A DNA stretch of 37,698 nt from Candidatus Omnitrophica bacterium CG08_land_8_20_14_0_20_41_16. Its GTDB lineage: Bacteria; Omnitrophota; Gorgyraeia; Gygaellales; Profunditerraquicolaceae. The notes beneath the pieces are model-generated. The model had not been told where the DNA came from and searched no databases. It saw only the letters and a list, made by a program, of their open reading frames with translations. The DNA lies in the NCBI GenBank assembly GCA_002774445.1, contig PEYI01000051.1, positions 1 to 37,698 of the forward strand, written 5' to 3'. Positions 1 to 37,698 of the stretch are shown piece after piece. The translations under genes were made by a program, and so were the position numbers. Each line of letters starts with the position of its first letter. Position 1 is the first letter of the stretch.

Positions 1-73
1 AAAACCTCACGCACGGTTTGATGAGGGGGCGGTGGAAACACAATTCGGCTGTGCGCCACTGCTCTACTCTACT
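1..73 (+). mobile_element. Group II intron 3' end (domain V 3' arm and domain VI), partial
   Basis: The window opens inside what reads as intron domain V: the end of a GAAA-type tetraloop, then ACCTCACGCACGGTTT, which matches the 3' arm of the conserved 34-nt catalytic hairpin including its CG bulge. After the linker GATGA comes a domain VI-like hairpin: GGGCGGTGG (27-35) pairs over nine positions with CCACTGCTC (56-64), with two G-U pairs and an inner CACA/TGTG stem. The 3' tail CTCTACTCTACT leaves A66 as a plausible bulged branch-point adenosine 6-7 nt before the 3' splice site, near position 72-73. Any intron-encoded reverse transcriptase would lie upstream of the window. Recognition rests on sequence and fold pattern; the 5' half of domain V cannot be seen. 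Confidence 0.8.
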
Positions 74-77
74 AAAT

Positions 78-152
78 CTCGACGAGAAAATTTGTGTAAT
101 CTTTTAAAAATCTGTGTAATCAACAGCCCTGAACGATTTTTGTGAAGGGCTG
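78..152 (+). repeat. 75-nt composite palindromic repeat, copy A (rplJ leader)
   Basis: This element is identical at 74 of 75 positions to 25981-26055 upstream of rpmJ. It contains two AATCTGTGTAATC-like modules and a terminal hairpin, CAGCCCT (124-130) with AGGGCTG (146-152). In copy B the element continues leftwards into GATTACACAGATT. Here that left half is missing, and the group II intron end sits where it should be. Confidence 0.9.
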
Positions 153-180: not shown

Positions 181-711
181 GTGAAAAAGTTAGGGTTAAT
201 TTTTAAGGAGGCATCGGGAAACCGCATCAAAGGGACTTTAAAGAAATCCGATGCTGTCTTTATCGTTAAGTATTCAGGGGTATCCAGCCCTGATTTATCT
301 TTTTTAAGGCAGGCCTTAAAGGGCTCTCAAGCCTCGCTCTTTGTGGTTAAGAATAGTGTTGCCCGCAGGGCATTAAAGGATTCCGGATTAGAGCTTTTGA
401 TTAAAATGATCGAAGGCCCCTGTGGTTTGGTTTTTATGAATGGTGAACCTATAGCAGCAGCGCAGGCCGTATGTAACTTTATCAAAGAACACGGAGAGTT
501 AAAGCTTGAAGGTGGTTTCTTAAAAGACAAAGTCTTAGAGAAGAAAGATATAGAGGCCATGTCAAAACTTCCTTCTAAAGAAGTTTTGAGGGCGCAAGTA
601 GTTATGACATTAAATTCGCCGATATCGGGTTTAGTAATTACCTTAAATCAGCTATTGGCGAAATTTATTTATTGTATAGATCAGATAAAAAATAAAAAGA
701 CTAATTCATAG
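181..711 (+). CDS. rplJ: 50S ribosomal protein L10
   Basis: L10 forms the base of the ribosomal stalk and anchors L7/L12 dimers to 23S rRNA near L11, where translation GTPases bind. The 176-residue product has the L10 N-terminal domain (FIVKYSGVSSPDLSFLRQAL near residues 27-46, then VVKNSVARRAL) and a C-terminal helical L12-binding segment. The start is GTG with GGAG at 167-170, ten nt upstream. The usual partners rplK and rplA lie outside the window; an intron end and a palindromic repeat sit immediately upstream. Adjacent rplL supports the call. The roughly 30-nt spacer between repeat and start leaves little room for the long L10-binding leader known from E. coli. Confidence 0.98.
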   Translation: MKKLGLIFKEASGNRIKGTLKKSDAVFIVKYSGVSSPDLSFLRQALKGSQASLFVVKNSVARRALKDSGLELLIKMIEGPCGLVFMNGEPIAAAQAVCNFIKEHGELKLEGGFLKDKVLEKKDIEAMSKLPSKEVLRAQVVMTLNSPISGLVITLNQLLAKFIYCIDQIKNKKTNS

Positions 712-791: not shown

Positions 792-1175
792 ATGGCAAGC
801 GTAAAATTAGACGAAATGATTAAGTCCATAGAGGTGATGACGGTTTTAGAATTAGCGGATTTAGTCAAGGCCTTGGAGGAGAAATTCGGAGTTAAGGCGA
901 ATATGCCGATGATGGCTGTTCCGGCGGCAGGCGTTCAGGCAGGGGCAGCAGCCGTAGAGGAGAAATCTACCTTTTCGGTAGTTTTAACTAATGTCGGCGC
1001 TAACAAGATAGCGGTTATCAAGGAAGTGCGTACAATAATTAGTCTTGGTTTAAAAGAGGCCAAGGATTTAGTTGACGCTGCTCCCAAATCTTTAAAAGAA
1101 GGCGTTGCAAAAGAAGAAGCTGAAGAGATCAAAAAGAAACTTGAAGCAGTAGGCGCTACCGTCGAACTAAGATAA
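792..1175 (+). CDS. rplL: 50S ribosomal protein L7/L12
   Basis: L7/L12 is the multicopy stalk protein that recruits EF-G, EF-Tu, IF2 and release factors and stimulates their GTPase activity. The 127-residue product shows the expected layout: an N-terminal dimerisation helix (about residues 1-35), an Ala/Gly/Val-rich hinge (about 38-58), and a C-terminal domain with [19 protein letters not shown] and the [19 protein letters not shown] helix pair. Length is normal. GGAGG six nt upstream of the ATG gives a strong initiation site, fitting the need for several copies of L12 per L10. Confidence 0.99.
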
Positions 1176-1372: not shown

Positions 1373-4300
1373 ATGATTAAACGCAAAAGTTTTGCCAAGT
1401 TTAAAGAGGTATATAACATACCCAACCTTTTAGATGTTCAGCTTGAGGCCTTTCGCGAATTCCTTCAGCTTGACGCCCCTTTAAGTGAAAGAAGGCATCA
1501 GGGCCTGCAGGAAGTCTTTTCCGATATGTTTCCTATTGAGAACCTTAAGCGTACGGTAAAGTTGGAGTTTATTAGTTATTCTTTAGGCAAGCCAAAATAT
1601 AATATGACTGAGTCTAAGATCCGCAGCCTTACTTATGCCCTTCCCCTTAAGGTAAAATTCCGCCTGACTACCCCTAAGGAGGCCAAAGAGCAGGATGCGT
1701 ACTTTGGCGAGTTGCCTTTAATGACCAATACCGGCAGCTTTATTATTAATGGCGATGAGCGTGTAGTGGTAAGCCAGCTGCAAAGGTCGCCGGGCGTCTC
1801 TTTCGAAGAAGAGGATCATCCTACCGGAAAGAAGATATTTTACGGCAGGGTTATACCTTACCGCGGGGCCTGGTTAGAATTTAAATATGACCTTAGTGAA
1901 ACAATTTTAGCTTATGTTGACCGCCGGAGAAATTTTCCTGCAACGCAAATCTTGAGGATACTTGGTTTTTCCGAGGATAAAGATATAATCGCCGCCTTCG
2001 GCAAGGAATATCCGGAGATCATCAATACCTTAAAGAAAGACTATACCAAGAATAAAGAAGAAGCCTGCATGGATTTTTACCGTAAGATGCGTCCTACGGA
2101 GCCAGTCACAAAAGAAGTAGCAGAGGCTTTATTTTATAGATTATTTTTTGATCCGGGACGTTATGATTTGGAGCGCGCAGGTAGGTTCATCTTAAACAGA
2201 AAATTAGGCATGGACGTATCTTTAGAGAAGCGAATCCTTGATTCGGATACCGTGATTAAAGTAATAGAGTATTTGATTAATCTTCACTCCGGCATAGGAG
2301 AGATTGATGATATAGACCATTTAGGGAACCGCCGCGTTAAAACCATCGGCGAATTAATCCAGAATCAGGTACGTATTGGCTTAAGCCGCGTAGAAAGGTC
2401 CATCCGCGAAAGGTTAAGTTTATTAGGTGAATTTGATACTCTTAATGTGCATTATTTGATCAATTCCAAATTATTATCCAACCAGATTCGTGATTTCTTT
2501 GCCCGTTCTCAGCTCTCTCAGTTTATGGATCAAATAAATCCTCTGGCCGAGATGGCCCATAAAAGAAGGTTAACTGCTTTAGGCTCGGGAGGTTTATCCC
2601 GTGAACGCGCTGGTTTTGAAGTAAGGGATATTCATCCTTCTCATTATGGCCGGCTCTGTCCTATTGAAACTCCCGAAGGCCCGAATATTGGTTTGATTGC
2701 ATCGCTTAGCACATTTGCCAGGGTTAATACCTTAGGCCTTCTTGAGACTCCATATCGCAAAGTTGAGGATGGCCGGGTAACCAAGAAGATTGATTACCTT
2801 ACCGCCGATATCGAAGAAGATAAGATTATCGCTCAGGCAAATGTTCCCTTGGATGAAAATGGTTATTTTGTAGAAAAAGAAGTATCCTGCCGCTATAAGA
2901 ATGATTTTCCCAAGATTTCCGCTAAGCAGGTTCAATATATGGATGTTTCTCCTAAGCAGTTAGTCTCTGTAGCTGCTTCTTTGATTCCTTTCTTAGAACA
3001 TGATGATGCTAACCGCGCGCTTATGGGTTCAAATATGCAGCGCCAGGCAGTCCCCTTGATGATTACCGAGGCGCCAATTGTAGGGACTCAGATGGAGGAG
3101 AAGGTAGCGCGCGATTCCGGGACAGTAGTTGTGTCCAAAGATAGCGGCAAGGTAACCAGCGTAGATGCCTCCTCTATTACGGTTGGCAAAAAGATTTATC
3201 GCTTAAAGAAATTCTTACGCACTAATAATAACACTTGTCTAAATCAAAGGCCGATTGTGAAACTCGGAGACAGGATTGATAAGGGCGATATAATCGCAGA
3301 TGGGATAAGTTCTAAGAATGGTGAGTTGGCTTTAGGCAAAAATGTATTGGTTGCTTTTATGCCTTGGCGCGGGTATAACTTTGAAGATGCTATTCTTATC
3401 AGTGAAAAGTTAGCTAAAGAAGATGCCTTTACCTCTATACATATAGGAGAGTTTGAGGTAGAAGCTACGGAGACTCGTTTGGGCAATGAAGAGATAACCC
3501 GCGATATCCCCAATGTTAGCGAAGAGGCCTTAGCTAACCTTGATGAGAACGGTATTATTCGTATCGGCGCAGAAGTTGCTTCAGGAGATATATTAGTCGG
3601 TAAGATTACTCCTAAAACTAATTCTGAACCTTCTCCTGAAGAGAGGCTTTTAAGGGCTATATTCGGCGAGAAGGCGGGGGATGTCCAGGATACTTCTCTT
3701 ATTGTTCCTCCTGGAGTTGAGGGCGTAATTATAGATGTGCACGTTTTTGCGCGCAAGGACCGCGGCAGAAAGAGCAAAGAAGAAAAAACAAAAGAATTAG
3801 TTAAGATCCGCGAATTAAAGGCCTATTATAAACAGGAGATAGAATTTGTGCAGGCTGAGAAGGTAGTTAGGCTTGCCCAGCTTCTTAGTATTGATAAGAA
3901 AAAAGTAGAAAAGTATAATTTTAGCGATAATGAAGAGGCGAAAAATTTAGCTGCTTCATTTGATGAGCAGATACAGGAATTAATTTCTGAGGAAGAGCAG
4001 GAACTCGAAAAAGTAAGGCGTGGGGACGAACTTCCTGCCGGGGTATTAAAGAGGGTCGTAGTTTATATCGCTACTAAACGCAGGCTTGCTGAAGGAGATA
4101 AGCTTTCCGGACGCCACGGAAATAAAGGTGTGGTCTCCAGGATTATGCCCGAAGAGGATATGCCTTATATGTCGGATGGTACGCCGGTGGAAGTAGTGCT
4201 TAATCCTTTGGGTGTTCCTTCACGCATGAACGTAGGCCAGATTTTAGAGTGCCATTTAGGCTGGGCGGCAAAGGTATTAGGGCTTTATGTTGGCACTCCT

Positions 4301-4777
4301 GTTTTTGACGGCGCCAGCGAAACAGAGATCAAAGAAATGCTTAAAAAAGCAGGTTTGCCCGATGACGGCAAGACTACCCTTTATGATGGTTATAGCGGCC
4401 AACCCTTTGAGCATAAGATTACCGTGGGATATATGTATGTGATGAAGCTTATTCATCTCGTTGCTGAAAAGATTCATGCTCGTTCTATCGGCCCTTATTC
4501 ATTAGTTACCCAGCAGCCATTAGGCGGTAAGGCGCAGTTCGGCGGGCAGAGATTAGGAGAAATGGAAGTTTGGGCTTTGGAGGCGTACGGAGCGGCATTC
4601 ACTTTACAGGAAATGCTCACCGTAAAAAGCGACGATGTTTTAGGGAGAACGCGTATCTATGAGGCCATTGTTAAAGGCGAACAGCACCTGACTCATGGAA
4701 CTCCGGAGTCATTTAACGTTTTAATTAAGGAACTACAGGGTTTGTGTCTGGATATCCGGACAGAAAAGGCGAAATAA
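1373..4777 (+). CDS. rpoB: DNA-directed RNA polymerase subunit beta
   Basis: This is the catalytic beta subunit of RNA polymerase. The 1134-residue product is compact compared with E. coli (1342) and lacks the large lineage-specific insertions. Visible landmarks are the fork and rifampicin region [20 protein letters not shown], then [40 protein letters not shown], the C-terminal [15 protein letters not shown], and the clamp-anchor end [20 protein letters not shown]. In the rifampicin pocket, residues aligning with E. coli N518 and S531 are I388 and T401. The TAA stop overlaps the rpoC ATG by one base, so the two subunits should be translationally coupled. Confidence 0.99.
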
Positions 4778-24747: not shown

Positions 24748-24899
24748 TTTCCACTGAAAAAGCGGAAACTATGATTACACAGATTATAAAAGCAGATTTC
24801 AGAGATTAAAACAGCGTCGAAATTTATCTGTGTAATCTTTTCTAAAATCTGTGTAATCAAGTTATTGCTGGGTTTTTCAGCAATAACTAAATAATAAAG
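24748..24899 (+). repeat. adk-map spacer: chained hairpins with GATTACACAGATT modules
   Basis: TAGTTTCC (24745-24752, including the adk stop) pairs with GGAAACTA (24764-24771). GATTACACAGATT (24773-24785) faces ATCTGTGTAATC (24826-24837) and AATCTGTGTAATC (24846-24858). AGTTATTGCTG (24860-24870) pairs with CAGCAATAACT (24878-24888). Little space remains before the map ATG at 24900, and no strong Shine-Dalgarno is seen there. Confidence 0.88.
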
Positions 24900-25929: not shown

Positions 25930-26078
25930 AAAATATAGGGCTTCACAAAATTGCTTATTTTATGATTACACAGATTAAAGCTCGACGAGAAAATCTGTGT
26001 AATCTTTTAAAAATCTGTGTAATCAACAGCCCTGAACGATTTTTGTGAAGGGCTGTAGAAAATAAGGAAGGTGCGGGA
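25930..26078 (+). repeat. infA-rpmJ spacer: nested palindrome, 75-nt repeat copy B
   Basis: This is the most complete copy of the composite element. CTTCACAAAA (25941-25950) faces TTTTGTGAAG (26041-26050). Inside lie GATTACACAGATT (25964-25976) and two AATCTGTGTAATC modules. CAGCCCT/AGGGCTG closes the right end. 25981-26055 matches 78-152 at 74 of 75 positions. GGAAGG at about 26065 precedes the rpmJ GTG. Confidence 0.9.
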
Positions 26079-29505: not shown

Positions 29506-29679
29506 CAGCCCTTCACAAAAATCGTTCAGGGCTGTTGATTACACAGATTACCAGAGATTACACAGATTTTTCCGTCGGAGATTTAATCTGTGTAATCTGC
29601 TTTTAATCTTTTAATCAGAGATTGCTGCCTATTTTTAGAATATTTCAGCAATCTCTTATAATAAAAAGAGGTTAATTTT
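29506..29679 (+). repeat. rplQ-aminotransferase spacer: inverted 44-nt repeat copy C and GCTG/CAGC hairpin
   Basis: 29506-29549 is the exact reverse complement of 109-152. A second GATTACACAGATT, an AATCTGTGTAATC and a GAGATTGCTG (29618-29627)/CAGCAATCTC (29646-29655) hairpin follow. 29614-29655 is identical over 42 nt to 33297-33338. The CAGCCCT arm begins immediately after the rplQ stop, so this hairpin closes the ribosomal superoperon. Confidence 0.9.
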
Positions 29680-37519: not shown

Positions 37520-37698
37520 GGTCGCTGAAAAATTCCTAAAAATCATCAGCGACCTCTGATTACACAGATTACTTTCCCGCCATAGCGGGATCCCGCCAGA
37601 GGCGGGAAAGATTACACAGATGCGTGCCAAGTTAAGCTCTTTCTTAGTCTAACCGATGTGAGTTCGGGACATAGCAATTGTCTGTTTGGCTATGTAGT
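37520..37698 (+). repeat. 3'-end spacer: GCTG/CAGC hairpin, GATTACACAGATT modules, truncated palindrome
   Basis: GAGGTCGCTG (37518-37527, overlapping the TGA stop) pairs with CAGCGACCTC (37547-37556). Two GATTACACAGAT copies (about 37557-37570 and 37610-37621) flank CTTTCCCGC (37572-37580) paired with GCGGGAAAG (37602-37610). Near the edge ACATAGC (37669-37675) pairs with GCTATGT (37689-37695) in sequence of unknown nature. No coding region is seen here. Confidence 0.8.

Follow-up and report, generated by a model that had tools for sequence, protein, structure and literature searches.

The window analysed here, 37,698 nucleotides long, is the entire contig C50 of a fragmented metagenome-assembled genome (MAG) of the Omnitrophota (1,184,571 bases in 98 contigs) and is bounded by two copies of one group II intron, with the 3' end of one (copy A) at the left and, not mentioned in the original prediction, the 5' end of another at the right. 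Copy A interrupts a palindromic repeat at the head of the rplJ-rplL-rpoBC genes, as the original prediction had stated, and the same repeat recurs uninterrupted further along the contig. The features are as follows:

1-72, forward strand: 3' end of intron copy A, with the loop and 3' strand of domain V (D5, 1-19), domain VI (D6, about 23-70), the branch-point A (66) and the terminal CTCTAC ending at 72; based on an RF00029 match, on other contigs that start likewise, and on the D5-D6 fold and its covariation with seven relatives.
73-152, forward strand: 3' exon of copy A, the right half of the interrupted palindromic repeat, with a 98-99% match to uninterrupted copies at C50:25976-26055 and C47:9012-9091.
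181-711, forward strand: rplJ (ribosomal protein L10), the first gene 3' of copy A and on the same strand as the intron (PF00466, E 1.1e-21).
792-1175, forward strand: rplL (PF00542 and PF16320).
1373-4777, forward strand: rpoB (RNA_pol_Rpb2 domains).
24773-24858, no strand assigned: uninterrupted repeat copy with arms in the order + - -, from the repeat-arm scan.
25938-26055, no strand assigned: uninterrupted repeat copy, the reference of the original prediction, with an empty site at 25964-25975 (GATTACACAGAT followed by T); fold of -38.2 kcal/mol, z -5.1.
29506-29640, no strand assigned: uninterrupted repeat copy in the opposite orientation, from the repeat-arm scan.
37558-37621, forward strand: 5' exon of the second intron copy, with two GATTACACAGAT arms, the second abutting the intron exactly, from the repeat-arm scan.
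37622-37698, forward strand: 5' end of the second intron copy (77 nt), beginning GCGTGCCAAGTTAAGC and cut by the contig end; it aligns with the 5' ends of homologous introns.

The first 72 nucleotides of the window align to RF00029 with 23.7 bits (E 0.0068, model positions 18-77) as a 5'-truncated match, in agreement with the original prediction of a group II intron end at this point. The curated gathering score of RF00029 is 40, and a search of the whole window with Rfam at gathering score returns no match, because D5 is cut by the contig end. Where the same 3' end is found with D5 complete, on contig C31 (40-127), the score rises to 48 bits, and the 5' arm of D5, whose absence would have spoken against an intron, is present on this sister copy. 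In eight related D5-D6 stretches the same pair of hairpins forms, with 97.3% of cells paired, and D6 displays compensatory changes among the relatives, such as G-C to A-U. D5 and D6 lie at the 3' end of the intron with a bulged branch A, as is characteristic of group II introns, and the D5 triad AAGCCGUG is AGC in all eight aligned introns. The 3' splice site reads CTCTAC/T, which places the boundary at 72 and the first exon base at T73, within the interval of 72-73 estimated earlier. At the other extremity, all copies begin with GCGTG, a GUGYG-like start that deviates from the consensus at position 2 and matches the GCGCG or GCGTG of homologues, whose boundaries are fixed by an interrupted open reading frame (ORF; the intron on contig C11, see below) and by the exon-binding sequence EBS1.

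The repeat restarts directly at position 73 (TAAATCTCGACGAG...), consistent with its predicted resumption within a few bases of the intron, and continues through the core CTCGACGAG (78-86), an arm with one change (90-101), a further arm ATCTGTGTAATC (110-121) and an outer hairpin CAGCCC...GGGCTG (124-152). The uninterrupted copy at 25964 reads GATTACACAGATTAAAGCTCGACGAG, exactly as first reported. The left half of the repeat had been described as replaced by the intron end; it is indeed absent from the window start, although it is not lost, being missing there because it sits on the far side of the intron. In general the repeat is modular, and GATTACACAGAT is the arm of this intergenic palindrome. 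Outer hairpins, which vary, flank it on both sides; between them, one or two arms on one side and one or two reversed arms on the other enclose a short core, for instance CTCGACGAG or CTCCGTCGGAG. The arms and core are conserved among several distinct outer hairpins, and the repeats often lie just before a start codon; the copy at 25938-26055, for example, is directly upstream of an rpmJ-like ORF (ribosomal protein L36, identified by eye), and repeats also occupy spacers of other ribosomal operons. The genome contains 92 exact copies of GATTACACAGAT, with 12 occurrences in the window compared with 0 expected. In the 5' exon at the right end of the window, the two arms lie on either side of a 40-nt GC-rich inverted sequence.

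The intron is not confined to the window. Twelve contig ends (C30, C35, C45, C49, C50, C51, C72, C73, C79, C84, C86 and C98) read GATTACACAGAT followed immediately by GCGTGCCAAG, with shorter intron stubs on C51, C79 and C98, and thus provide the left repeat halves running into an intron 5' end that the original prediction had sought. The ends of C27 and C32 stop at GATTACACAGAT with one or no intron base, giving a total of 14 ends at the 5' exon. Conversely, twelve contig ends (C16, C27, C30, C31, C39, C40, C42, C46, C50, C60, C62 and C79) start within the intron 3' end and proceed to T, C60 retaining just the last three intron bases. A genome search for the intron 5' end finds it at contig ends only and always after GATTACACAGAT, if a single chance match and the diverged intron on C11 are set aside. 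Counted from contig ends rather than from closed sequence, the genome therefore holds about 12 to 14 near-identical copies, and at least 12, and it is at these copies that the assembly breaks. The presence of an intron at the head of this operon was called unusual; the placement is real, yet copy A is not a lone oddity but one of at least 12.

The rpsF and ssb-rpsR-rplI genes are neighbours in the usual bacterial gene order, and when contig C73 (ending in pth-rpsF) is joined to C60 (starting with ssb-rpsR-rplI) an intact repeat results, which matches the uninterrupted C47 copy at 74 of 75 and 54 of 57 positions. The 3' exons of C31, C62 and C42 read TAATCAGG... and are without the repeat core; an empty form of these exons was not seen in the genome stretches read. 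We note that in these three insertions TAATCAGGTATAATCC follows the intron in place of the core. Searches of the MAG and nine other genomes with the C11 intron did not recover the interior of the multicopy intron, and the reverse transcriptase (RT) of copy A itself is not in the assembly. The only RT found in the MAG is that of the C11 intron. On C31, the codons just ahead of a stop align with the end of this RT, a weak hint that the multicopy intron may also encode an RT.

The first downstream gene is on the same strand as the intron in 12 of 12 cases (two-sided sign test, ~0.0005), as is the upstream gene in 13 of 14. With names beyond rplJ, rplL and rpoB taken from translations read by eye and not from a family search, the downstream genes comprise rplJ, ssb, recA, gatB, argC, panB, a homoserine dehydrogenase-like gene and others, while those next to 5' junctions include rpsF, carB, accC and tsaD. 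Because the repeat arms lie on both strands, this orientation bias suggests either that spliceable insertions were selected or that insertion prefers one strand. We looked for rplA as the upstream partner of the window and found it absent from the MAG. In four congeners the order nusG-rplK-rplA-rplJ-rplL is found throughout, with a short, intron-free rplA-rplJ spacer, and copy A is thus most likely located between rplA and rplJ, its upstream neighbour being deduced from these congeners.

A complete but diverged intron of the same lineage is located on contig C11 (6720-8625), with matches to group-II-D1D4-6 and D5. Its RT matches the group II RT/maturase family TIGR04416 at 410 bits and includes domain X; no endonuclease domain is reported. 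Among the solved RTs closest to it is the class C enzyme GsI-IIC. The C11 intron splits a small ORF between codons 2 and 3; by eye, this ORF resembles a RelE/ParE-like toxin gene. The ORF has no match in Pfam or NCBIfam; it is preceded directly by a gene that weakly matches an AbrB/MazE antitoxin, and about 660 nt separate the intron from the end of an upstream tmRNA (RF00023). Related introns in four other Omnitrophota MAGs (G019, G085, G081 and G079) and one Peregrinibacteria MAG (L222) share the same 5' and 3' ends and D5 as well as, where assembled, an RT that is 67-88% identical to that of C11, but differ in their 5' exons, each of which matches the EBS1 of its own intron. Six homologous introns have a 7-nt EBS1 loop, located at about nt 211-223, that pairs with the final 7 nt of the respective 5' exon if G-U pairs are allowed. 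In G079, five contigs (C1, C41, C42, C51 and C61) break where a related intron begins, in each case following the 13-nt exon ACAGKACTTTGTT; the sites are otherwise unrelated and have no constant upstream hairpin. This exon fits the near-identical G081 intron, which has EBS1 AACAAAG and a candidate EBS2, ACTGT. The RT of L222 (Candidatus Peregrinibacteria LBUS01000022.1) is 87% identical to that of the Omnitrophota intron, and EBS1 and the intron ends are also shared, which likely reflects transfer between phyla or misbinning.

Every examined copy of the multicopy intron sits at the same 12-letter word GATTACACAGAT, which coincides by position with the intron-binding sequences IBS2 plus IBS1. 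We conclude with high confidence that the window is bounded by two copies of a single multicopy group II intron, which is IIB-like and not class C and most likely retrohomes to the repeat-arm word GATTACACAGAT. Group IIB introns recognize IBS1, IBS2 and IBS3 and have an AGC triad; here the triad is present, and an IBS2 match is clear in G079 and G081 but weak in the other homologues. The original prediction had instead proposed a class C (IIC) intron that recognizes the palindrome as a hairpin or terminator. Such an intron would account for insertions inside or beside hairpins, and the RT of the C11 relative lacks an endonuclease domain, as in class C, and has GsI-IIC among its nearest solved structures. 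However, class C introns carry a CGC triad in D5 (PMC4424553, PMC7923331), whereas the triad here is AGC; the EBS1-IBS1 pairing of the six homologues comprises 7 bp rather than 3-4 bp; G079 and G081 show a good match to IBS2, in place of which class C introns use a hairpin, and no constant hairpin lies upstream in G079; and in the window's genome both inner and outer arms are used at variable spacing to the outer hairpin. We consider this reading very improbable, and rejected the class C assignment on the D5 triad, the EBS1 length and the exon conservation. Rather, what makes the palindrome a target is apparently the homing word that forms the arm of many copies, and not the hairpin as such.

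That repeats and intron constitute one composite mobile element, with the intron having carried the repeats around, is less probable still. Both are multicopy here, and neither was found in the four congeners, from all of which the repeat is absent, as such an element would lead one to expect; yet at least 16 multi-arm repeats in the same genome are uninterrupted by the intron, and the intron sits in different arms and repeat subtypes. Within the family, repeats are abundant in the window's genome, G063 and G105 and fewer in G003, G007 and G052, but no related intron was found in G105 or G007, both of which bear repeats. The location of all copies at contig ends, where assemblers err, and the missing interior could alternatively be taken to mean that errors of assembly or binning in repeated sequence produced the joins. 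This is the least credible of the explanations, given the single-base agreement among twelve 3' junctions and among twelve 5' junctions beside core genes (rplJ, ssb, recA, gatB and argC; rpsF, carB, accC and tsaD), and given that joining the rpsF and ssb ends restores the expected repeat.

Retrohoming to the repeat arm would operate through a 12-nt IBS2+IBS1 site, GATTACACAGAT with T as the next base, in which the predicted IBS1 is CACAGAT and the predicted IBS2 is about GATT. The EBS1 of the multicopy intron would accordingly be close to ATCTGTG, in a loop that lies beyond the 78 nt available at the 5' end. Insertion may occur at replication forks, which provide primers for endonuclease-less introns (PMC4424553), and would employ either the intron's own endonuclease-less RT or that of the C11 intron acting in trans. 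Transcripts would then be spliced, leaving the operons functional, with a predicted spliced junction of GATTACACAGAT followed by TAAATCTCG at both rplA-rplJ and rpsF-ssb. Because the arm word is present at tens of places in the genome, one EBS specificity would open up numerous operon spacers as harmless landing sites and thereby permit proliferation to at least 12 copies. As judged from sequence, the intron behaves as a homing IIB type and finds its homing word in a palindrome dispersed through the genome; the EBS1 and EBS2 of the copies are predicted.

Three kinds of target are described for bacterial group II introns, namely homing sites, terminators and attC sites (PMC4424553). The closest precedent for the Omnitrophota intron is the group IIB pair TeI3/TeI4 of Thermosynechococcus elongatus (PMC2882425), which likewise occurs in many near-identical, mostly intergenic copies per genome, and in which EBS changes set target families, one in repeated IS200-type elements and another inside other introns (PMC2882425). 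In contrast, the Omnitrophota intron, from a different phylum, is one family on a dispersed palindromic intergenic repeat, and each of the 12 scored copies lies in the sense orientation relative to its downstream gene, in some cases within ribosomal-protein operons. Class IIC and IIC-attC introns (PMC7923331, PMC4424553) also insert into palindromic DNA between genes, and share with the C11 relative an RT without endonuclease, but are distinct from the Omnitrophota intron in its AGC triad, long EBS1 (in homologues) and IBS2-like specificity, with no hairpin requirement seen. In Pseudomonas putida KT2440, group II intron copies are similarly found at dispersed extragenic palindromes, two of nine being associated with REP sequences (PMC1525189), whereas every copy seen of the Omnitrophota multicopy intron is in the repeat; the likeness to REPs is one of position, the repeat sequences not having been compared. 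A pattern scan across GTDB for repeat-linked intron 5' ends, from which the records of the window's genome were perhaps excluded, returned none, as did a scan of viral contigs. In literature searches we found no paper containing the 13-mer GATTACACAGATT and none pairing group II introns with Omnitrophota.

Group II introns in bacteria tend to be few in number and rarely disrupt housekeeping genes (PMC6003770, PMC2882425). The homing-type intron described here is present at 12 or more copies in a small genome, sense-oriented in essential operons; it reaches this number because an intergenic repeat family contains its short target word. The copies explain the fragmentation of the MAG at these points, and may also explain the absence of genes such as rplA. 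We suggest, with confidence evenly divided, that this lineage has adopted a genome-wide repeat as its homing site and recurrently occupies core operon spacers (rplA-rplJ, rpsF-ssb), where splicing in the sense orientation would be required, such that the repeats may serve as a safe-harbour library through which a 1.2-Mb genome can bear a heavy load of introns.
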